From an uncultured Pelagibacteraceae bacterium (GTDB taxonomy: Bacteria > Pseudomonadota > Alphaproteobacteria > Pelagibacterales > Pelagibacteraceae), in NCBI GenBank assembly GCA_902578775.1, contig CACHEF010000001.1, positions 62,001 to 126,000 of the forward strand: DNA of 64,000 nucleotides, in the 5' to 3' direction. The translations under genes and the position numbers were made by a program. How positions within the stretch are numbered: position 1 is the first letter of the stretch; every line of letters starts with the position of its first letter. The notes under the pieces were generated by a model, which did no database searches, was not told where the DNA came from, and saw only the letters and a program-made list of their open reading frames with translations. Shown piece by piece: positions 15,405-49,320 of the stretch.

Positions 15405-16874
15405 CTATGGTAAACAATCTAGATAAGTATCCAGATCCCATTGAGTAGTTGCACCTAAAAATTTCTCCCATTCATCATTTTTATACCAGTGAAATATTTT
15501 GTACATTTCATCTGGCATTGAAGATTGAACAACCTTGTCTTCAGAAAGTCTTTCAAGTGCTTCACCTAAACTTAAAGGTAATTTTTTAACATCTTTACCA
15601 GCTTTTTGAGCCTCATAAATATTTCTAGATTCCGGTTTGCCTGGATCAATTTTATTAGTTAATCCATCATCCATCGTTTTAAGCAATGCAGCACCCATTA
15701 AATAGGGGTTATGCATAGAGTCAACTGATCTATATTCAAATCTTCCTGGTGCAGAAACTCTCAAACCACAAGTTCTATTTTGGTATCCCCAATCAGCATA
15801 AACTGGTGCCCAAAAACCTTGGTCCCATAATCTTCTATAAGAATTTACTGTTGAAGATCCAATAGCTGTTAAAGCTGGCAAGTGTTTCATAATACCACCT
15901 ATTGACATTAGCCCTACTTTTCCAGGAAGCTGCATATCTTTAGTGTCTGGCATGAATGTATTTGTTCCGCCTTCAACATAAGTAAATACTTCTTCAACAC
16001 CTGGTAATGATTTATGTCCCAATTTGTTAACAACGTCTTTTCCACCTTTCCATAAGGAAAGGTTAGTATGACAACCACTAGCAGAAACTCCCATGAACGG
16101 CTTAGTCATAAAACAAGCAATTAACCCATGTTCTCTAGCTACTTGTGCACAAATTTGTCTATAAGTTGAAAGTCTATCAGCATTTCTTAACACATCATCA
16201 TACATCCAGTTTAACTCCAATTGGCCTGGTGCATCTTCATGGTCTCCTTGAATCATATCAAGTCCCATTGCATTTGCGTATTCAATTACCTTCATAAAAA
16301 CAGGTCTCAAAGACTCAAACTGATCTATGTGATAACAGAAAGGTTTTGAAAATCCTTTACCCGTTGGTGTACCATCTTCATTTTTAGTTAACCACATCAT
16401 CTCAGGTTCAGTTCCAACTCTCATTTGGTAACCATGTTTCTTTTTAAATTCTTCAGCAATTATTCTTAAATTTCCTCTACAATCAGAAGTTAAGTGACCA
16501 CCTGGGTTCTCTCTTTCTTCTCTATTTCTAAAACAAGTACAATAAACTCTTGCAACTCTTTTATCCCATGGTAACTGAACAAATGTTTCTGGGTCAGGAA
16601 TACCGACTAACTCTTTAGCTTCAGGTCCGTATCCGATGTAATTATTATGTCGGTCTAAGAATAAATTTGCAGTTGCACCGTAAACTAATTGAAATCCTTT
16701 TTCAGCAGTCCTTTCCCAATGATCCGCTGGAATTCCTTTTCCAACTACTCTTCCAGTTACAGAAATAAATTGAAAATAAATATAAGTTATTCCTAACTCG
16801 TTAATTTTATCTCTAACTTTTTTAACTAATTTTGCTCTTCCCGGTTGGTTAACATGCTTTTCTAGATCTGTCAT
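15405..16874 (-). CDS. glutamine synthetase family protein (GlnT-like), second GS paralog
   Basis: GDHEDAPGQLELNWMYDD; GYQNRTCGLRVSAPGRFEYRSVDSMHNPYLMGAALL. Confidence 0.82.
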   Translation of the reverse strand: MTDLEKHVNQPGRAKLVKKVRDKINELGITYIYFQFISVTGRVVGKGIPADHWERTAEKGFQLVYGATANLFLDRHNNYIGYGPEAKELVGIPDPETFVQLPWDKRVARVYCTCFRNREERENPGGHLTSDCRGNLRIIAEEFKKKHGYQMRVGTEPEMMWLTKNEDGTPTGKGFSKPFCYHIDQFESLRPVFMKVIEYANAMGLDMIQGDHEDAPGQLELNWMYDDVLRNADRLSTYRQICAQVAREHGLIACFMTKPFMGVSASGCHTNLSLWKGGKDVVNKLGHKSLPGVEEVFTYVEGGTNTFMPDTKDMQLPGKVGLMSIGGIMKHLPALTAIGSSTVNSYRRLWDQGFWAPVYADWGYQNRTCGLRVSAPGRFEYRSVDSMHNPYLMGAALLKTMDDGLTNKIDPGKPESRNIYEAQKAGKDVKKLPLSLGEALERLSEDKVVQSSMPDEMYKIFHWYKNDEWEKFLGATTQWDLDTYLDCLP

Positions 16875-31425: not shown

Positions 31426-32682
31426 ATGCAAAAATATTCAGTATTTAATTTAATTAAAAACGCCTTTTCAAATCATGAGAATTGGGATCTTGCGTGGAAA
31501 GACCCAACACCTAAAAAAGAGTATGATGTAGTTATTATTGGAGGTGGTGGACATGGTTTAGCAACTGCATATTATCTCGCGAAAGAACATAATATTACAA
31601 ATGTCGCCATAATAGAAAAAGGATGGATAGGAGGAGGAAATGTAGGTAGGAATACTACAATAATTAGATCTAATTATATGCATGATGACAATGCTTTATT
31701 TAGTGAATTTGGCATGGATCTTTGGAGAAAAATGAGCCAAGATTTAAATTACAATGTAATGTTTTCTCCTAGAGGAATTATCAATCTTGCGCATTCAGAT
31801 GCACAAATGAATGTTTACGCTAGAAGAGGAAATTCAATGAGATTAAATGGGATTGATGCTATTCTTTTAAACAGGGATCAAGTTAAAGAAATTATTCCGA
31901 TGGCAGACTTTTCTGATAACGTTAGATTTCCAATATTTGGTGGCTTGATGCAACCTAGTGCAGGCACTGCTAGACATGATGCTGTAGCTTGGGGTTATGC
32001 AAGACAAGCAGATTCTATGGGTGTTGATATAATTCAAAATTGCGAAGTAACAGGTTTTGATGTTTCAGGGGGAAAAATAAAAGGTGTAAGAACATCACGC
32101 GGAGATATTAAAGTAAAAAAAATTGGATTGTGTGTTGCTGGTAGCACAAATATTTTAGCAGAAAAACTTAACATGAGGTTACCAATAGAAACACATCTAT
32201 TGCAAGCGTGCGTATCTGAACCAGTGAAACCAATTTTAGATAGAGTTGTAACTTTTGGTGCTGGACATTTTTATATAAGTCAATCAGACAAAGGTGAAAT
32301 GGTAATGGGTGGTGATTTGGATGGATACAACAGTTACGCTCAAAGAGGTAATCTTCCAACTTTACAGCATGTTTTGACAGAAGGAATAGCTATGATGCCA
32401 TTTCTTAGTAAATTAAAAATGCTTAGAACTTGGGGTGGTATAATGGATATGTCTATGGATGGTTCTCCAATTATTGATAAAACTCACATAGAAGGTTTGT
32501 ATTTAAATTGTGGTTGGTGTTATGGTGGATTTAAAGCAACACCAGCATCTGGTTGGACATTTGCTCATACCATTGCACAAGATAGAGTTCATGAATTAAA
32601 CGCTGGATATAATTTGAATAGATTTAATACAGGTCACTTATTAGATGAAAAAGGACTTGGTACAAAAACTTGGATTTCATAA
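31426..32682 (+). CDS. mgdA: N-methylglutamate dehydrogenase subunit A / sarcosine oxidase beta
   Basis: VVIIGGGGHGLATAYYLAKEHNITNVAIIEKGWIGGGNVGRNTTIIRSNY; first gene of a B-D-A-G-like operon. Confidence 0.78.
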   Translation: MQKYSVFNLIKNAFSNHENWDLAWKDPTPKKEYDVVIIGGGGHGLATAYYLAKEHNITNVAIIEKGWIGGGNVGRNTTIIRSNYMHDDNALFSEFGMDLWRKMSQDLNYNVMFSPRGIINLAHSDAQMNVYARRGNSMRLNGIDAILLNRDQVKEIIPMADFSDNVRFPIFGGLMQPSAGTARHDAVAWGYARQADSMGVDIIQNCEVTGFDVSGGKIKGVRTSRGDIKVKKIGLCVAGSTNILAEKLNMRLPIETHLLQACVSEPVKPILDRVVTFGAGHFYISQSDKGEMVMGGDLDGYNSYAQRGNLPTLQHVLTEGIAMMPFLSKLKMLRTWGGIMDMSMDGSPIIDKTHIEGLYLNCGWCYGGFKATPASGWTFAHTIAQDRVHELNAGYNLNRFNTGHLLDEKGLGTKTWIS

Positions 32683-32952
32683 ATGCTTCATATTAAATGT
32701 CCACATTGTGGAATGAGATCACAAAATGAATTTTCTTATGGAGGAGATGCTACAGTTAAAAGACCTGAATTAGGTAAAGAGATATCTGATCAAGAATGGA
32801 ATGACTTTGTTTACAATAGAAAAAGTTTAAGAGGTAAACATTGGGAGTTATGGCAACACATATCAGGTTGTCGTCAATGGATAAAAGTTGAAAGAGATAC
32901 AGCATCTCATGAGATCTTTAAAACTTTAAAAGCTGATCAGGAAATTTCCTAA
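32683..32952 (+). CDS. mgdB: N-methylglutamate dehydrogenase subunit B / sarcosine oxidase delta
   Basis: CPHCGMRSQNEFSYGGDA; GCRQWIKVERDT. Confidence 0.82.
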   Translation: MLHIKCPHCGMRSQNEFSYGGDATVKRPELGKEISDQEWNDFVYNRKSLRGKHWELWQHISGCRQWIKVERDTASHEIFKTLKADQEIS

Positions 32953-35948
32953 TGACTCAAGCATTTAGATTAGAAAATGTAGGATTAATTAATAGAAATA
33001 AAAAACTTTCATTTAAATTTAATGGTAAAAACTATCATGGCTATGAAGGAGATACTTTAGCATCAGCATTAATTGCAAATGGTGTACATTTAGTCGGTAG
33101 AAGTTTTAAGTATCACAGACCAAGAGGATTTTTTGGTGCTGGTGTTGACGAACCATATGCAATAGTTCAATTATATAGAAATGGTGAAACAGAACCAAAT
33201 ATAAAAGCCACAGAACAAGAGCTTTTCGAAGGCTTGGAGGCTAAAAGCGTAAATTGTTGGCCAAGCGTAAATTTTGATATTGGAGCTATAAATAATTTTT
33301 TAAAAATATTTCTCCCTGCAGGATTTTATTATAAGACTTTTATGTGGCCAAAAAGCTTTTGGTACAAAGTTTATGAACCGTTTATTAGAAAAGCAGCTGG
33401 ACTTGGCGTTGCGTCTATAAAACACGACAAAGAAAGATACGAACATAAGTACGAATATTGTGACTTATTAATTACTGGATCTGGACCATCTGGATTGGCA
33501 AGCGCTTATGCTGCTGCAAAGAATGGAGCTAGAGTAATTTTGGCTGAAGATAAATCAAGATTTGGCGGAACATTATTAACTAGTGATGTAAATATAGGTA
33601 ATCAATCAGGTAAAGAATGGGCAGATGGAATAATTTCCGAACTTAAGGAAATGCCTAACGTTACAGTTAAAAATAGATCACAAGTTTTTGGTTACTATGA
33701 CCACAATATGTTAGTGATGTCTGAGAGGATAAGTGACCACTTACCTGAAACAAAAAAATTCCACCCAAAACAAAGATTGTGGTACATAAGAGCTAAAGAA
33801 GTTTTAATATCCTCGGGATCAATTGAAAGACCAATTGTATTTGGTAATAATGATACCCCAGGGGTAATGCTTTCATCAGCTGCAAAAGAGTATTTAAAAG
33901 TTTATGGAGTATTAGTTGGAAAAAATCCACTTATTTTTACCAATAATGATAGTGGCTATGAGACTGCGATAGAGTTTAAAAAAAATGGTATTGATCCAGT
34001 TATTTTAGATACAAGAAATGATCCTAATTCAGAGATAATTGATGAAGCAAAAAATCTAGGAATAGATATAAAATTTTCTTACGTAGTAGTAGCCGCTCAA
34101 GGTTATAAAAAAGTAAAATCAGCTGATATCGCAAAAATTTCTGAAGACAAAGAGCAACTTGGAAAAATAGAAAACATTAAATGTGACTGTATCTGTGTAT
34201 CAGGTTTTTGGACACCAACTATTCATTTGGCCTCACAATCAGGAAATAAATCAAAATTTAAAGAGGATATAGATGCATTCATTCCAGGGATATCAAAACA
34301 AAATGAAACAACTTTAGGTGCTGCTAATGGGGTTTATACTTTAGATCAAACCTTAAAAAGTTCATTTGAAACTGGTCAAAAATTGTCAAAAGAAATTACT
34401 AATAATGATAATAAGATCTCTTTCCCAAATGTTGTTGAAAAAAAATCAACAGTTCATGATAAATTTTGGTGCGTACCACTTCCAAAAGGAAAAAATTACA
34501 AAAGATTTTTAGATTTTCAAAACGATGTTGCGGTATCTGACATTGAAATCGCTTTAAAAGAGGGATATCGATCAATTGAACATGTTAAGCGATACACAAC
34601 TCTTGGAATGGCTACCGATCAAGGTAAAACAAGTAATCTTAATGGTTTGCAATTAGTATCCAAAATAGAAAATAAAGTTGTACCAGCTGTAGGCCATACA
34701 ACATTTAGACCTCCATATACACCAGTTTCAATCGGAGCAATTGTTGGAAGAGAAGTTGGGAAACATTCAAAACCAACTAGAAAATCACCAATGCATACAT
34801 GGCATGAGAAAAATAATGCAGTTTTTGTTGATGCAGGTGTGTGGTTAAGACCAAGATACTATAAACGAGGAAATGAGAATTTGTTTGAGGCATCAAAAAG
34901 AGAGGCAAAAAATGTAAGAACAAATGTAGGTGTTTGTGATGTAACGACGTTAGGAAAAATAGACATTAAAGGGCCGGATGCAGCCGAATTACTCAATAGA
35001 GTTTATACGAATGCCTGGTTAAAGTTACCAGTGGGTAAAGCAAGATATGGAGTGATGTTAAGGGAAGATGGAATAGTTATGGATGATGGAACAACTACAA
35101 GAATTTCTGAAAATCATTATCATATGACTACCACAACTGCTCAAGCAGCGAACGTTCTCTCTCATTTAGAATACTATTTACAACTAGTATGGCCTGAATT
35201 GAATGTGAATGTGGTTTCAACCACTGAGCAATGGGCAGGAGCTGCAATTGCTGGACCAAAATCAAGAGATTTATTACAAAAACTATTTCCGAATTCTGAT
35301 GTGTCTAATGAAGGTTTGCCTTTTATGGGTTATATCGAGGGAGATTTATTTGGAGTAAAAGCTAAAATCTTTAGAATTTCTTTTTCAGGTGAACTTGCAT
35401 ATGAAATTAATGTTGAGTCAGATAATGGAAATTTCATGTGGGAAAAAATTATGGAAGTCGGTCAAGAATTTGAAATTCAACCATATGGCACAGAAGCGTT
35501 ATCAACTTTGAGAATAGAAATGGGACACGTTGCAGGTTCAGAGCTTGATGGAAGAACTATTCCTTATGACAATTCTTTAGAGGGTTTGTTAAGTAAAAAG
35601 AAAGATTTTATAGGAAAAAGATCTTTAACTAGAAAGGCTTTTACAGCTGATGATAGACAAAAAATTGTTGGCGTTGTTCCTTTAGATAAAAAAACAAGCA
35701 TTCCAGAAGGATCACATTTGGTTAAAGATTCAAATGCTCCACTACCAAATCCTAAATTAGGATATATTTCAGCCTCTTGTTGGAGTGTTGAGTATGATAA
35801 TCCATTTTCATTAGCAATATTGAAAGATGGAAAAAATATGATTGGTGAAAAATTATTTGTGATGTCTCCACTTAAAAACAAAGTAATCCCAGTTGAAATA
35901 GTTTCTTCACATTATGTCGATCCAAAAGGTGAAAGGGTTAGATCATGA
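32952..35948 (+). CDS. mgdC: N-methylglutamate dehydrogenase subunit C / sarcosine oxidase alpha
   Basis: 998 aa; NAD/FAD region [23 protein letters not shown]-terminal GcvT-like domain. Confidence 0.82.
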
Positions 35949-36532
35949 GCTCAATTTCAGCTTTAGCAAATGTTCATTCAACAGGTCAATTTGGTGATCA
36001 TGAAGGCAAAAATGAAAATGATCTTTTAAAAATTTCAGAAATAAAAAATTTACTTATAGTTCAAATAGTTCAGTATAAAAGTTCAACAGTTTCAATTAAA
36101 GATATTGAAATTGATGGTTTAAGATTAAAAGATGAACCATTACGAGTGTTAAATAATAGTAATACAAGAATATTATGGAATGGACCAAAGAATTGGCTAT
36201 TAGTTTCAACAAAAAAAGATTTATTAAAAAAAATTTTGGAAAATTTTCAAGAAAAAGATTTTGCTGTGACAGACTTATCTCATTCAAGAGCTATAATTCA
36301 AATAGAAGGACAAGAGGTAAAAGAAATTTTAAAAAAAGGGTGTCCTTTCAATTTTAATACTTTAGAAAAAAATAATTCAATAAATTCTATTTATAATGGA
36401 ATAGCTTTCACTGTTGATATGATGAATGAAAATCCTGATAAGGTAAGATTATTTACTCTTAGAAGTTTTGGAGAATCTTTGTATCATTCTATCACAGATG
36501 CATCTCTGGAATTTGGTTTCAAATCATTATGA
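35945..36532 (+). CDS. mgdD: N-methylglutamate dehydrogenase subunit D / sarcosine oxidase gamma
   Basis: Fourth gene of the operon, overlaps mgdC stop; SoxG-like. Confidence 0.75.
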
Positions 36533-41862: not shown

Positions 41863-42828
41863 ATGAACTATAAAATAGATAACCTTCAGTATTGCAATTG
41901 GTCTCGACAAATTTTTGAGATTAATAGAGAAGCAAAATTAGATGCTGTACATGTCACCATAGTTTATCATGAAGACTACAACGAATTACTTATTGAAAAA
42001 GAAAAATGGGAAAAGTTATTTAAAGAAAACTCAGATTTAATATTTTTAGGCAATAATTTTGAAGATATTGATAAGGCACATAAAGAAAATAAAACTGCAA
42101 TTTTTTTTGGTTTTCAAAATTGTTCACCTATAGAGGACGATATTAATCTGGTTGAAAAAGTTCATGAAATTGGATGTCGATTTATGCAACTTACTTATAA
42201 CAATCAATCATTGTTAGCAACTGGTTGTTATGAAAAAAATGATAGTGGCGTAACTAATTTTGGAAGAGAAACAATTAAAGAGATGAATAGAGTTGGAATA
42301 GTTATTGACATGTCTCATTCAGCAGAAAAAAGCACTTATGATGCAATTGAAATCAGTGAAAAACCAATAGCTATTACTCATGCAAACCCAGCTTTTTGGC
42401 ATCCTGCAAAAAGAAATAAATCTAATGATTTACTTAAAACCTTAAGCGAAAGTGGAGGGATGTTGGGTCTCTCTTTATATCCACACCATTTGAAAAATAA
42501 TACTGAATGCACATTGGAAAGTTTTTGTGAAATGACTGCAAGAACGGCAGAAATAATGAATGTAAAAAATATAGGCATTGGTTCTGACCTTTGTTTAGAG
42601 CATCCAGATAGTGTTGTTGAATGGATGAGAAATGGAACTTGGTCAAAAAGTAAAAATTATGGTGAAGGGTCAAAAAAGAAACCTGGTTTCCCAAAACAGC
42701 CTAATTGGTTTAAAGATGCAAGAGGTTTTGAAAATTTAGAAAAGGGATTAAAAAAAATTGGGTTTTCTGAAGATGAGACTAATGGCATACTTGGTAACAA
42801 CTGGTTTAATTTTTATAAAGGTATTTAA
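41863..42828 (+). CDS. M19 (renal dipeptidase)-like protein
   Basis: GIVIDMSHSAEKSTYDAIEISEKPIAITHANP; IGIGSDL; canonical N-terminal HxD replaced by IDNLQYCNW. Confidence 0.8.
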   Translation: MNYKIDNLQYCNWSRQIFEINREAKLDAVHVTIVYHEDYNELLIEKEKWEKLFKENSDLIFLGNNFEDIDKAHKENKTAIFFGFQNCSPIEDDINLVEKVHEIGCRFMQLTYNNQSLLATGCYEKNDSGVTNFGRETIKEMNRVGIVIDMSHSAEKSTYDAIEISEKPIAITHANPAFWHPAKRNKSNDLLKTLSESGGMLGLSLYPHHLKNNTECTLESFCEMTARTAEIMNVKNIGIGSDLCLEHPDSVVEWMRNGTWSKSKNYGEGSKKKPGFPKQPNWFKDARGFENLEKGLKKIGFSEDETNGILGNNWFNFYKGI

Positions 42829-44484
42829 ATGCAAATTCAGCTAAGAGATCCAAACAAAATCATGAAATTATCAAGACTTGGATCATTTCATCAGTCTAAA
42901 TTATCTTTTTTGAGAAGTTTTTTGGATGAATTTAAAGACTGGGATTACAAAAATGATTTATTTGATTTAGATAAAAATGGGTATGGTACTGCAGTTTATT
43001 CATTTAGGAAAAAAGAAAGAATCTATTCTTTAGTTTGCTTTGCAAACAAAATAAATGATGATGAAAGATCAGATAGAGTCATTGCTACTAAGTGGGATGC
43101 TGCTTTCACATTACATGATGGCCCACCGTCTAAAAAAGATATTGAAAGATTAAGAAATGAAGTTCCAAAACAAGAAGTAGGCAGATTATCTTATAAGGAA
43201 CTAACTCTTTCCAGAGCCAATAGATCCGTAAGAGTATTCAATTATGTAGTAGATAGTTTAAGTAAAGGCTCTCAGCCCGATTTAGATATTTTAGAAAAAG
43301 TTGGGTATCTTTATAGAACTACAGCTGTTTATGGTTCTGGAAAGTTTGGTCTTGCAGACAGATTTAGAATTAAGAACAGAGAGGAAATTAATGGACCATT
43401 TAGACTAGAAATGATGCTAGTTTATTTAGTAAGGCAATTCACATTTGACCAAGTAAATCACGTTGCAAAAAATAAAAATCCAAAATCTGCTGTAAAACTT
43501 GATCCCAAAATTTGTAAAAAATTAGGAATTGGAAATTCTACAGGCTTAGGTATGGCCCCATTTATTGTAAATCACCCAACTTTATTAAATAATTGGATTT
43601 TAAGTAGAGAAATTGCTTTAAAAAAAATTAGAGAGATAAAAAAAGTAAATTTAAATGAAATAAAAATTTTTAAAAAATGCCTTAAAAATTCAATTAAAAT
43701 TATATCAAGCTGGAATACTGATAGTGAATATCAAAAAAATAAAATAAATTCTCTTTTTAAAAATATTCAAAAATTTTTAAAATTTATTGAAGAAGAGTTT
43801 GATTTTGAAATAGATTTTCCTCTTAATGAAGTTTACTTATGGGTAGAAAAAAATACTTGTGAAGAATGCATAGAATATGTTGTTTCAATGATGTTGGAGC
43901 CATTTGACAATATTACAAAACCACTTGTAAATGGAATGAGTTCAGATGAGGATGAATATTTTACTATACCTACAAATCGAACAGTTAAAGATTTAAGAAA
44001 TATTATTGAAAAAAGATATCCCGATATACTAAAAATAAATTTTGAAAAAAAAGAAAATTTTAAAAATTTTTGGTTTATTTCAAAAAATAAAGAAGAGCCA
44101 AGATATGCTGATAGATTCGATGAAGAAGGTTCAGAATTAGAACAACCACTTGCAATTGCTAGAGACGTCAAAAAATTGTATGATCAGCTTTTAGTTTCAA
44201 AGAATAGCTTAACAATTGATAAATTTTTAATTGCAAATAATGACTTAAGACATGTTATTAGAAGAGCTTTTATAATTGAAAAATTTCCTTACTCAGAAAT
44301 TCAAGATAATACTATAGGTGAAAAAGTAATTCCAATTGATATGCTCAGATTAAAGCTATCTTTTTTTGGTGCTTTAAAATTTGATCCTAGATCAGATAAG
44401 TGGCTAAGAATTTGTATGTTTCAAGGTGCTCCATTACCAAATGATTTAAAAAATTTTGATCATCACTGGGTTTACAATTATTAA
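42829..44484 (+). CDS. uncharacterised 551-aa protein
   Basis: Open frame starting directly after the M19-like stop; no family recognised. Confidence 0.75.
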   Translation: MQIQLRDPNKIMKLSRLGSFHQSKLSFLRSFLDEFKDWDYKNDLFDLDKNGYGTAVYSFRKKERIYSLVCFANKINDDERSDRVIATKWDAAFTLHDGPPSKKDIERLRNEVPKQEVGRLSYKELTLSRANRSVRVFNYVVDSLSKGSQPDLDILEKVGYLYRTTAVYGSGKFGLADRFRIKNREEINGPFRLEMMLVYLVRQFTFDQVNHVAKNKNPKSAVKLDPKICKKLGIGNSTGLGMAPFIVNHPTLLNNWILSREIALKKIREIKKVNLNEIKIFKKCLKNSIKIISSWNTDSEYQKNKINSLFKNIQKFLKFIEEEFDFEIDFPLNEVYLWVEKNTCEECIEYVVSMMLEPFDNITKPLVNGMSSDEDEYFTIPTNRTVKDLRNIIEKRYPDILKINFEKKENFKNFWFISKNKEEPRYADRFDEEGSELEQPLAIARDVKKLYDQLLVSKNSLTIDKFLIANNDLRHVIRRAFIIEKFPYSEIQDNTIGEKVIPIDMLRLKLSFFGALKFDPRSDKWLRICMFQGAPLPNDLKNFDHHWVYNY

Positions 44485-44492
44485 AATTAAGA

Positions 44493-45104
44493 ATGAAATC
44501 TTTGAGTGAAATAGATACTACATCAAAACGAGCAAGTAGAGCTGTAGGATTTTCATGGGGAGTTGCAGAGGAAATAGGAAAAAACATTCGTTTACTTGAA
44601 TTATTTGGTCTAGAGGGCATTAAGACTTTAAATCAATATTATAAATTGAGAAAAAATCAAAAATTTGAAAATGTGAATCTAATAAATGAAAATAATCACT
44701 CTGAAAAATATCCATTTTGTCCAATCACATTAGGTCTTAATTTTCTTGATCAAATAAGAGGCATTGAAAAATTTGAAAAGATTATATTTAATAATGTTTC
44801 TTATCCTTTATTAATTTTACCTTTTTTAAGTAGAAGCTCTGAAGTAATTGGAAAAAAAATTAAACTAAAATTTAATGATATTGCGTTTTTGTTAAATCTT
44901 AATGTCAATATTAGATCAAATTTATCAAATCAAAGCTTTCCTGAGTTTGCTAAGAAAGTAGAAATAAATTTTTTAGAAAATAAAGATAATTTTTCTCAGC
45001 AAGAATGGGAAAGTTTATATAAACTATCTGAAGAAACGTTTGTTGATGAAACTGATAGCTTAAAACAAAATGCTGCTGGTGCAGGGTTAACTGATAATGA
45101 CTGA
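44493..45104 (+). CDS. DUF3726-like hypothetical protein
   Basis: MKSLSEIDTTSKRASRAVGFSWGVAEEIGKNIRLLELFGLEG; coupled to upstream ORF. Confidence 0.65.
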   Translation: MKSLSEIDTTSKRASRAVGFSWGVAEEIGKNIRLLELFGLEGIKTLNQYYKLRKNQKFENVNLINENNHSEKYPFCPITLGLNFLDQIRGIEKFEKIIFNNVSYPLLILPFLSRSSEVIGKKIKLKFNDIAFLLNLNVNIRSNLSNQSFPEFAKKVEINFLENKDNFSQQEWESLYKLSEETFVDETDSLKQNAAGAGLTDND

Positions 45105-45267
45105 AAATAGAGATAAAATTTTTCCTAATGACAATGACGTAAGAGATTTAGACAATATTTGTGATGAATGTAAAGAAGAACATGAGAGTGTATCCCATAA
45201 TTTAATATTAATGGGATTTAAAATCTGTAATACTTGCAGAACCGCAAAAACAATATTTCCAATTTAG
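45097..45267 (+). CDS. 56-aa zinc-ribbon-like protein (not in supplied track)
   Basis: MTENRDKIFPNDNDVRDLDNICDECKEEHESVSHNLILMGFKICNTCRTAKTIFPI; start overlaps upstream gene, stop overlaps the convergent Yip1-like stop by 4 bp. Confidence 0.72.
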   Translation: MTENRDKIFPNDNDVRDLDNICDECKEEHESVSHNLILMGFKICNTCRTAKTIFPI

Positions 45268-45944: not shown

Positions 45945-47303
45945 TTAACCTTTTACAACTTCTCTTGTATTCGCGTTGAAGGATTCTTTAAAAGGAATAT
46001 CAACTACTACTGCATCTACAGGTTGACCAGGTGTCTCTGAATATATTTCTGGTAAATGAACTTTAAATTTGGTTCCAATTTTACCTTTTGGAAAACCATT
46101 TGCATTTAATGTTCCATCAAACGGAACATACCCCATTGCAATATTAGTTTTCTTTTCAGGATGCCACCACGGTGAAGTAATAAATCCAACAGGATCTCCA
46201 CCACCTTCATTTGATATTAACCAAAAATCTGGCGCATAATCATCTATAGGTTTTCCACCCAACTCTAATCCAACTAACTGAAGTTTATAGGGTTTTTTTC
46301 CATCCCTAATTTCTTTGCCCATTTTTTCTAATGCAGCTTTTCCAACATAATCTGTAGTTTTATTCCATTCTCCTTTTCCAGAGAGTGATACTTGATAACC
46401 TAAATTACATTGGTAAGGATTGTGCTGCACATCCATATCTTGTCCCCACGATAGAATACCTGCTTGAATTCTTCTGTGATGAGCTGGAGCAATTACCATC
46501 AAGTTATGTTTTTTTCCTGCTTCAAGAACAGCATTCCACATATCTTCAGCATACAAAGTTGCGTTTCTTAAATATATTTCATAACCAGCTTCACCAGAAA
46601 AACCTGATTGTGAAATTACGCAACTTCTTCCACCAATCTTTACCTCAGCCAAACCATAGAAAGGCATATTATCAAAATCAACTTGATCTCCACAAAGATC
46701 TTTCATTAAAGCTTTTGACTTAGGACCCTGAATTTGAACTGGACAAGCATCAATCTCTTCGATTGTGCAATCAAATCTTCCGTCAGCATTAACACCTTGA
46801 AGGTACATACCTATATCAGAGTCAGATAAAGAAAACCAAAATTCATCTTTTGAAATTCTTAGAAGAATTGGATCATTTAAAACTCCACCATAAGCATTAC
46901 ATAAAATTACATATCTAGCTCTCATTGGAGAAATTTTTGTTGCATCTCTTGTAATTACATAATCGGTAAATTTTTCTGCATCTGGACCTTTAACTCTAAT
47001 TTGTCTTTCAACAGCAACATTCCACATCGTAACATGATTAACAATCGCATCATATTCCACCATTGCCCCACCATCCTCTGGTTTAACATATCCTCTTGGA
47101 TGATAAATACGATTATATACAGTTGCTCTCCAACATCCTGCTTGCATTGATAAATGCCAATAAGGTGATTTTCTAACCCTTGTTGAAATTAACATTTCAA
47201 CTTTAGTAGGCCCGCTTTGTCTTAAATTATATGGTACTTCTCGATCAGATTGATCAACAGAGGTAACATGTTTTAGTTTAGTATAGTCAAATTCTTTAGA
47301 CAT
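45945..47303 (-). CDS. GcvT-fold THF-dependent demethylase, DmdA/LigM-like
   Basis: VNHVTMWNVAVERQIRVKGPDAEKFTDYVITRD; CNAYGGVLNDPILLRI; FWFSLSDSDIGMYLQG; VQIQGPKSKALMKDLCG; SGFSGEAGYEIYLR. Likely start MSKEFDY at 47303. Confidence 0.8.
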   Translation of the reverse strand: MSKEFDYTKLKHVTSVDQSDREVPYNLRQSGPTKVEMLISTRVRKSPYWHLSMQAGCWRATVYNRIYHPRGYVKPEDGGAMVEYDAIVNHVTMWNVAVERQIRVKGPDAEKFTDYVITRDATKISPMRARYVILCNAYGGVLNDPILLRISKDEFWFSLSDSDIGMYLQGVNADGRFDCTIEEIDACPVQIQGPKSKALMKDLCGDQVDFDNMPFYGLAEVKIGGRSCVISQSGFSGEAGYEIYLRNATLYAEDMWNAVLEAGKKHNLMVIAPAHHRRIQAGILSWGQDMDVQHNPYQCNLGYQVSLSGKGEWNKTTDYVGKAALEKMGKEIRDGKKPYKLQLVGLELGGKPIDDYAPDFWLISNEGGGDPVGFITSPWWHPEKKTNIAMGYVPFDGTLNANGFPKGKIGTKFKVHLPEIYSETPGQPVDAVVVDIPFKESFNANTREVVKG

Positions 47304-48069
47304 AACCATTCTCCTTCAACCACTTGTTTGTTTCCTTCAAGCCGCCGAATGTATAAATGTGGAAGAAATCAGTATGCGATTTAACTTTCCCAATTAGATC
47401 ATTAGGGTCTTTAGGTTTTAATAAATCTAACGCCTTAGTAAAATTAGATTTAAGAAAATTTAGGGAATTTTTTGCTCCAACAATATTAGCAAATTTAATT
47501 AAGCTAGATATTTTAAGAGGTCCAGTAATTCCTACATGCACTGGTACGCTTTGTTTAGAAATAAAATCTATGATAGGCTGAGGATCTAATAACCACTGTG
47601 TAACTATATAATCAGCATAAGGCTTTTTATCTTTCATAGCTTTTTCTAAATCTGAGTCGGATATATCAGGACTCCCCTCTGGGTGTCCAGCGATTCCTAT
47701 AGTCATCTTCTCAAAATAACCAGTTTCCAAAAGTTGAAACGAACTATCAAATTTTCCCATTGGTTCCCTTCCGCCACCAATTACTAAAACCTGTTTAACC
47801 CCACCATCTTTACATCTAGAAACATAATCTTTTAGCTGCTTTTCATCCTGCATTGATCGTGCAGGGAAGTGAGGTATCGGGTTAAAACCTTTTTTTACTA
47901 ACTCAACTGCCTGTTGAGCAGTCTCTTTATAGTCTCCGCCTGGTAGCATAGTTACATAAACATCACTAACCTTCGGAACTGTCTCAAGGTCTGTTTGCGG
48001 TCCTATTTCTAAAGAAAATTTCATTTCTTGATCATTATCCTTTTTGAAAAAGCTGTCAAAGAAATTCAT
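47296..48069 (-). CDS. methylenetetrahydrofolate reductase-like protein
   Basis: FSLEIGPQTDLETVPKVSDVYVTMLPGGDYKETAQQAVELVKKGFNPIPHFPARS; GGGREPMGKFDSSFQLLETG. Confidence 0.8.
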   Translation of the reverse strand: MNFFDSFFKKDNDQEMKFSLEIGPQTDLETVPKVSDVYVTMLPGGDYKETAQQAVELVKKGFNPIPHFPARSMQDEKQLKDYVSRCKDGGVKQVLVIGGGREPMGKFDSSFQLLETGYFEKMTIGIAGHPEGSPDISDSDLEKAMKDKKPYADYIVTQWLLDPQPIIDFISKQSVPVHVGITGPLKISSLIKFANIVGAKNSLNFLKSNFTKALDLLKPKDPNDLIGKVKSHTDFFHIYTFGGLKETNKWLKENGYV

Positions 48070-48108
48070 TTATAGATGTGGCGAAATTTGTTGCCAAAAA
48101 TTATGCTC

Positions 48109-49320
48109 ATGATAATTTTTTTTGTGGATCAAAATCTTAAAAATTTACACTTATCAAAAATACTAGATATTAAGAAACTCAATAATGTTGATCAATCAAT
48201 AGAAGTAGCGAATGGCCTACCTAATGAGTGCTACATAAATAATGATTATTTGGCCTATGAAAGAGAAAAGGTTTTTTATAACAAATGGGCGGTAATTGGG
48301 GTGGCAAGTTCCATCCCCAATCCTGGAGATGCTAAACCACACAATCTACTCGGGATTCCATTGATCTTGTTAAGAGGTAAAGATATGAAGATTCGTGTAT
48401 TTCATAATGTTTGTAGTCATAGAGGTTTTAAACTTTTAGATAAACCATGTAGCTTAAAAAATGTAATTAGATGCCCTTATCACTCTTGGTCGTATGATCT
48501 AAATGGAAAACTCATTGCAACACCACACATTGGTGGTCTGAATAATCATAAATTAGAAAATTTTGATAAGACAAATAGTAACTTAAAAGAGGTTAAAACT
48601 AGAGTTTGGATGGATATAATTTTTGTAAATATAAATTCAAATGAAGTTGATTTTGATGAATATATCAAACCTTTAGAAAATAGATGGCAAAAGTTCATTG
48701 GTAAAGATGATTACAAATCTTTAGTTCATTCAAACGACTATGGTTACTTTAGTTTAGAAGTTAATTGTAACTGGAAATTTGCAATAGAAAATTATTGTGA
48801 GAGTTATCATTTGCCAACAATTCATCCAGAATTAAATAAGGTTTCAAATATTAATGATCATTATCACATTCAAGGATTACCTAATAGATTTGCTGGACAA
48901 GGAAGCAAAAAATATGAACAACCCACCAAAGGAAATAAAAAATTTAATACTTTTACTAATTGGGATAACGAAATGTTAAAAAATTCAGAATATATAGCTT
49001 TATTTCCAAACGTAATGATTGGTTTACATATAGATCACTTTTATGTTTTTTGGTTAGAACCTTTAACTATGAACAAAACTAAAGAACACATGCAAATGTA
49101 CTATGTAGGCAATGAAAGTGCAAATGGAGTAGAGTTAAAAGAATTAAGAAAAGAAAATTCAAGATTTTGGAAAGATGTTATGTTAGAGGACATAAATGCA
49201 ATTGAAGGAATGCAAGAAGGAAGAAACTCACCAGTTTACAATGGTGGAAATTTTTCACCTATAATGGATCAACCAACCCACCAATTCCATAAGTGGGTAG
49301 CAAATAGTTTAATGGAGTAA
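48109..49320 (+). CDS. Rieske non-heme iron oxygenase, alpha subunit
   Basis: NVCSHRGFKLLDKPCSLKNVIRCPYHSWSYDLNG; NWKFAIENYCESYHLPTIHPEL. N-terminus uncertain. Confidence 0.88.
   Translation: MIIFFVDQNLKNLHLSKILDIKKLNNVDQSIEVANGLPNECYINNDYLAYEREKVFYNKWAVIGVASSIPNPGDAKPHNLLGIPLILLRGKDMKIRVFHNVCSHRGFKLLDKPCSLKNVIRCPYHSWSYDLNGKLIATPHIGGLNNHKLENFDKTNSNLKEVKTRVWMDIIFVNINSNEVDFDEYIKPLENRWQKFIGKDDYKSLVHSNDYGYFSLEVNCNWKFAIENYCESYHLPTIHPELNKVSNINDHYHIQGLPNRFAGQGSKKYEQPTKGNKKFNTFTNWDNEMLKNSEYIALFPNVMIGLHIDHFYVFWLEPLTMNKTKEHMQMYYVGNESANGVELKELRKENSRFWKDVMLEDINAIEGMQEGRNSPVYNGGNFSPIMDQPTHQFHKWVANSLME

Follow-up and report, generated by a model that had tools for sequence, protein, structure and literature searches.

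Background

In the trigonelline pathway, cleavage of the ring yields an N-formyl group and an aldehyde. N-methyl amino acid dehydrogenase belongs to the Ldh_2 family and reduces N-methyl imines. An operon for another betaine, homarine (N-methylpicolinate), was reportedly described in 2026 under the name homABCDER; it is said to comprise five genes plus a regulator, to occur in Rhodobacterales and SAR11 and to yield N-methylglutamate. Homarine is taken up fast by Ruegeria pomeroyi (PMC12817926), and N-methylglutamate dehydrogenase (Mgd) takes part in homarine catabolism according to a passage of PMC13390433 that cites doi 10.1038/s41564-026-02313-7. The AraC regulator TmaR is located beside mgd (PMC13390433). 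In Vibrio and Pseudomonas, the genes ahead of dgcAB are a hypothetical one and one for a predicted dipeptidase (PMC12093977).

The operon described here is likely the SAR11 form of an alphaproteobacterial module that turns a quaternary-nitrogen betaine, with homarine as the likeliest case, into N-methylglutamate. In the surface ocean no bacterial clade is more abundant than SAR11, and homarine is common among plankton metabolites; if the role in homarine use is true, the operon shows how a streamlined cell taps the homarine pool.

Gene order and reading frames

The window (the whole stretch of 64,000 nucleotides analysed here, from an uncultured member of SAR11) possesses four coupled reading frames on its plus strand, as described in the first-pass annotation. 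These encode an M19-like hydrolase of the PA5396/2i5g clade (41863-42828), a protein of 551 amino acids, here called O551 (42829-44484), a DUF3726 protein (44493-45104) and a 56-aa CxxC...CxxC microprotein (45097-45267). The M19 gene ends directly at the O551 start without a gap, 8 bases separate O551 from DUF3726, and the ATG of the 56-aa frame overlaps the end of the DUF3726 gene. Homologues place the start of M19 at 41863 (MNYKIDNLQY...) and do not support the longer frame from 41836. All 49 full-length SAR11 loci keep the order M19-O551-DUF3726, and 45 of the 49 have the 56-aa frame in the same order.

The existence of the four-gene operon is confirmed, and the M19-O551-DUF3726 core is conserved far beyond SAR11. 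The four genes had been presented as one set; this holds for the core three, which are neighbours in other genomes too, but not for the 56-aa protein, an accessory of the SAR11 genus.

Downstream of the operon (45945-49320) the window contains a DmdA-like GcvT protein and a short MTHFR-like protein on the minus strand, together with a divergent Rieske oxygenase gene. A second type III glutamine-synthetase-like protein of 489 aa (15405-16874), matched by its model in two pieces, is located beside methylamine genes.

The O551 family

O551 has no match in Pfam or NCBIfam, and a sequence search of the PDB returned chance matches only (beta-lactamases at E about 1). Its AF2 model is confident (pLDDT 87, pTM 0.88), and a fold search with this model against the PDB matched no solved structure (best E 0.4, TM about 0.1). 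Neither by sequence nor by fold does the protein match a well-known unrelated family, a finding that would have spoken against a common pathway. O551 was initially called an orphan, which is strictly speaking wrong, as it belongs to a widespread family, albeit one that has no name and no fold match. Its range was surveyed in a class-wide sample of 288 alphaproteobacterial genomes and in annotated plasmid records: O551 is present in 40 of 61 close relatives and in 41 of the 288 class genomes. Identities are 64-85% within SAR11, 57-59% to the clade of genomes G088 and G291 and 38-59% outside SAR11 in the class sample; plasmid-borne copies of Phaeobacter, Ruegeria, Aminobacter, Mesorhizobium, Shinella and Roseateles reach 38-46%. 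About 90 columns are invariant in an alignment of 29 sequences.

A remote clade with 25-30% identity occurs in plasmid records of Sinorhizobium, Neorhizobium, Variovorax and the archaeon Natrinema, and splits from the main clade with full support in the tree. In this clade (the Sinorhizobium copy on pSymB) the partner of O551 is an Ldh_2-like protein, M19 follows in the three bacteria, and ABC transporters of polyamine or branched-chain type are found nearby. Two metagenome-type assemblies (G214, G127) have O551 interrupted by in-frame stops or fragmented; these copies could be pseudogenes or assembly errors. Phaeobacter inhibens DSM 17395, G198 and G286 possess two O551 copies each in different contexts, and more than one substrate may therefore be used within the family. 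A plasmid of P. inhibens DSM 17395 carries an ALDH-M19-O551-DUF3726 copy beside dmdD and a gene annotated as DMSP demethylase; another O551 locus is present in the same record. In G090, O551-DUF3726 adjoins a Rieske oxygenase and an MR_MLE enzyme, an arrangement reminiscent of hydroxyproline-betaine genes.

DUF3726 as partner of O551

The DUF3726 protein matches PF12525 with 77.6 bits (cut-off 22.1, E 6.5e-22). The same Pfam model finds matches in 34 of the 288 genomes, in all 34 directly downstream of O551, and in Mesorhizobium sp. 131-2-1 both are fused into one protein of 814 aa, WP_199201047.1. A structure search for this 203-aa protein, advised at the outset, pointed to an Ldh_2-type fold: with the AF2 model (pLDDT 88), the top 20 Foldseek matches in the PDB are all of Ldh_2 type (type 2 malate/lactate or related dehydrogenases), weak singly (probability 0.57-0.99, TM about 0.45, E 0.03-0.44) and uniform as a group. 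DUF3726 itself does not match the Pfam Ldh_2 model PF02615. In the remote O551 clade, the corresponding position is taken by a DUF3726 homologue (hhalign E 1.8e-7), whose Natrinema member scores 36.2 bits against PF02615 (cut-off 38.8, E 4.8e-9). Because of the uniform fold matches and this remote-clade homologue matching Ldh_2, DUF3726 is predicted to be a truncated, degenerate Ldh_2 relative and a partner subunit of O551. Its C-terminal tail, GAGAGxxDND, is conserved. A literature search found no description of DUF3726, PA5396 or this gene cluster.

O551 and DUF3726 may represent a new kind of enzyme, in which a catalytic subunit of new fold is joined to a degenerate Ldh_2-fold subunit and would open or reduce the ring of N-methylpyridinium compounds with no known oxygenase involved; the family would be large, act on several substrates and extend from SAR11 to haloarchaea. 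We regard this proposition as rather doubtful. O551 has a confident predicted structure without a solved match, is nearly invariant at about 90 positions and always has a remodelled dehydrogenase as its partner. If its reaction were identified, O551 and DUF3726 could both be named; the remote clade hints at additional substrates.

The M19-like protein

The M19 protein belongs to Pfam PF01244 (E 1.7e-69), and its closest solved relative is PDB 2i5g (E 1.3e-52). This structure is that of PA5396, the predicted dipeptidase of the pepD-hp-dgcAB cluster. The Pfam family, together with the label "membrane dipeptidase" that relatives receive in automatic annotation, might suggest an ordinary dipeptidase and an operon that handles peptides. 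This is very improbable, as the residues of the metal site argue against it. The HxD motif is absent from the M19 protein of the operon and from nine M19 proteins of related clusters, and the metal-bridging Glu, in comparison with 3id7, is replaced by Gln here and in every other member aligned; retained are two His, the Arg and the later Asp. Because of both changes, a plain dipeptidase role was ruled out, and the protein is predicted from its sequence not to be an ordinary dipeptidase. No recurring peptide transporter is present in the clusters examined.

The 56-aa CxxC microprotein

The 56-aa frame occurs at 93 loci in 81 distinct sequences, with all four Cys of the two CxxC pairs invariant and with dN far below dS, so it is considered a coding gene. 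Its two conserved CxxC knuckles are as expected of a zinc ribbon, and the product probably serves the operon as a small accessory protein that binds zinc. It has no match in the neighbouring SAR11 family, in other Alphaproteobacteria or in the fetched plasmid records; a role as a core component was ruled out on account of this restriction to the genus.

The full cluster in relatives

In Rhodobacterales and on rhizobia-like plasmids the core is part of a larger cluster, with a LysR regulator, ALDH-M19-O551-DUF3726-Ldh2 and a BCCT or glycine-betaine ABC transporter. This full cluster recurs in Ruegeria TM1040, Phaeobacter inhibens 2.10, Aliiroseovarius, Alisedimentitalea, Aminobacter NyZ550 and Roseateles XES5; the TM1040 genes are TM1040_RS02315-RS02345, at 395104-403693 of NC_008043. 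Among 40 class loci of O551, DUF3726 is co-located in 38, M19 in 35, Ldh2 in 18 and ALDH in 13. The G088/G291 clade retains betaine ABC-ALDH-M19-O551-DUF3726 with Ldh2 beside it; in G088, ALDH (54-55% to the cluster versions) and Ldh2 (46%) both lie beside the operon. The five structural genes plus regulator that reportedly make up the homarine operon are found in Rhodobacterales relatives but not in the window.

The SAR11 operon in the window possesses only M19, O551 and DUF3726 of the five structural genes, and ALDH and Ldh2 are not linked. SAR11 lacks a close ALDH orthologue (the best is unlinked, with 31% to the cluster version), and its Ldh2 homologue, likewise unlinked, has 36% and occurs also in a genome that yielded no O551 match. 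The SAR11 substrate could differ for this reason, the retained genes having been recruited, together with the 56-aa gene, into local one-carbon and methylamine metabolism, for which GcvT-like, MTHFR-like and Rieske genes are present next door. Such a recruitment would agree with the GcvT-like/MTHFR-like pair that follows in 43 of 49 SAR11 loci, with the presence of a GcvT-family gene downstream of the operon in G088 and G291 too, and with the lack of a linked ALDH or Ldh2 orthologue. We nevertheless consider it unlikely, since it is to the G088/G291 clade, where the full arrangement with betaine ABC, ALDH and Ldh2 is found, that SAR11 O551 shows 57-59% identity. The best reading of the SAR11 operon is a reduced form of the operon for conversion of homarine to N-methylglutamate, devoid of linked ALDH and Ldh2 and extended by the genus-specific 56-aa CxxC protein.

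Linkage to N-methylglutamate dehydrogenase

In Phaeobacter 2.10, Aliiroseovarius and Roseateles the cluster is contiguous with genes that carry the annotation soxBDAG and with a regulator of AraC type that most resembles GbdR; in the stretch examined of Ruegeria TM1040, the terminal sox-like subunits and an AraC/GbdR-type regulator adjoin it. A soxBDAG-like set of Rhizobium sp. T1470 is found together with mgsABC, gmaS (glnT), purU, folD and dmm, which make up the methylamine pathway. The SoxB of this mgs/gmaS-linked set shares 71-87% with the O551-linked SoxB of Roseateles, Phaeobacter and Aliiroseovarius, whereas SoxB copies linked to glyA or creatinase-like genes reach 54-59% in the same comparison. 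The O551-linked soxBDAG genes are therefore assigned to mgdABCD, as judged from sequence and context, and their identity as sarcosine oxidase was ruled out by comparison with the gmaS/mgs-linked copy.

The window contains mgdA, annotated in the style of soxB (31426-32682, plus strand, 62% to O551-linked MgdA), the adjoining soxA-like mgdC (32952-35948, plus strand, TIGR01372) and the soxG-like mgdD (35945-36532, plus strand), which overlaps the end of mgdC; these are proposed to encode the downstream step. The mgdA copy of the window has 60-62% identity to the mgs/gmaS-linked clade versus 53-55% to glyA- and creatinase-linked copies; the second SoxB copy of the SAR11 genome has 53% to MgdA. 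Further genes of the window are gmaS and those for a glutamate-synthase-like mgs subunit, TMAO demethylase and Tmm. In 40 of 49 SAR11 loci mgdC lies close to O551 (about 5 kb away, within about 9 kb), and mgdD does so in 41 of 49, an argument weakened by the general conservation of gene order in SAR11. With MgdA called at 59% identity or more, it is present in 30 of 41 O551 genomes versus 31 of 247 others, a clear MgdA missing in 11 of the 41. Among genomes with any SoxB/MgdA the counts are 30/41 with O551 versus 31/74 (p 0.001, in a test that ignores phylogeny). Linkage to mgd ranges from contiguity in four relatives to a distance of about 5 kb in SAR11.

Other N-methylated betaines or N-methyl amino acids, for instance N-methylproline, proline betaine or trigonelline, might be degraded instead, ending in N-methylglutamate or another N-methyl amino acid, with homarine as one case or none. 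The transporters of glycine-betaine type are broad, some genomes have two paralogous clusters together, MR_MLE and Rieske genes adjoin one locus in the manner of proline-betaine pathways, and transporters and partners are different in the remote clade (Sinorhizobium, Neorhizobium, Variovorax and Natrinema). However, adjacency to mgd is conserved in two distant O551 subclades, gene number and kind suit homarine chemistry, and neither a proline dehydrogenase nor a racemase is a recurrent member of the sets examined, which makes a substrate of this kind unlikely.

Proposed pathway

A quaternary-nitrogen substrate is favoured because it fits the betaine transporters, and homarine because of the linkage to mgd and because the number and kind of genes fit its chemistry. 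The cluster probably corresponds to the published homarine operon, as deduced from these features and from the reported make-up of that operon. A single catabolic pathway around a betaine, as first suggested, is supported by gene order, by the betaine transporters of the relatives and by the linkage to N-methylglutamate dehydrogenase; the further suggestion of an undescribed system is probably wrong, as the cluster agrees with the pathway for homarine that was reported in 2026. New here are the O551 model without a solved match, DUF3726 as a degenerate Ldh_2 fold and an M19 protein without HxD and bridging Glu.

The conversion of homarine to N-methylglutamate would require ring opening, loss of one carbon, aldehyde oxidation and a reduction. 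ALDH, M19 and Ldh_2 would cover the remaining steps, so the ring attack is left to O551 and DUF3726. These may form one two-subunit enzyme, with O551 as core subunit, for the first attack on the pyridinium ring. With the trigonelline pathway as model, cleavage between C5 and C6 would turn C6 into an N-formyl group and C5 into an aldehyde. The aldehyde would be oxidised by ALDH, the amide hydrolysed by the M19 protein with release of formate, and N-methylglutamate completed by the Ldh2 enzyme acting as N-methyl-imine reductase. In SAR11, unlinked paralogues would carry out the ALDH and Ldh2 steps. The mgdABCD product, encoded about 5 kb upstream in SAR11, would finally convert N-methylglutamate to glutamate and a one-carbon unit. 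The exact order of steps is tentative and may well differ.

Comparison with known systems

The pepD-hp-dgcAB dimethylglycine cluster of Pseudomonas and Vibrio likewise has a predicted dipeptidase beside a demethylation system for an N-methyl amino acid, but other enzymes surround it, and O551 or DUF3726 are not reported there (PMC12093977). DUF3726 is predicted to share its fold with the Ldh_2 family, and the partner protein of the remote O551 clade is related to PF02615; unlike Ldh_2 proteins, DUF3726 is truncated to about 200 aa, stays under the Pfam Ldh_2 cut-off and has a C-terminal tail of its own. The TgnABCDE trigonelline pathway of Acinetobacter has in common with the proposed one a pyridinium betaine, ring opening, an aldehyde dehydrogenase and the logic of an amide hydrolase. 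TgnAB, in contrast, is a flavin two-component oxygenase with no detected relation to O551 or DUF3726, and the product differs. The homarine operon hom reportedly agrees with the cluster in having five structural genes with a regulator (LysR in the cluster) in Rhodobacterales and in its occurrence in SAR11; from this reported gene set the SAR11 operon differs in that it retains only three of the five and has gained a 56-aa CxxC gene. Linkage to mgd is a further common feature, as the passage of PMC13390433 referred to above places Mgd in homarine catabolism.
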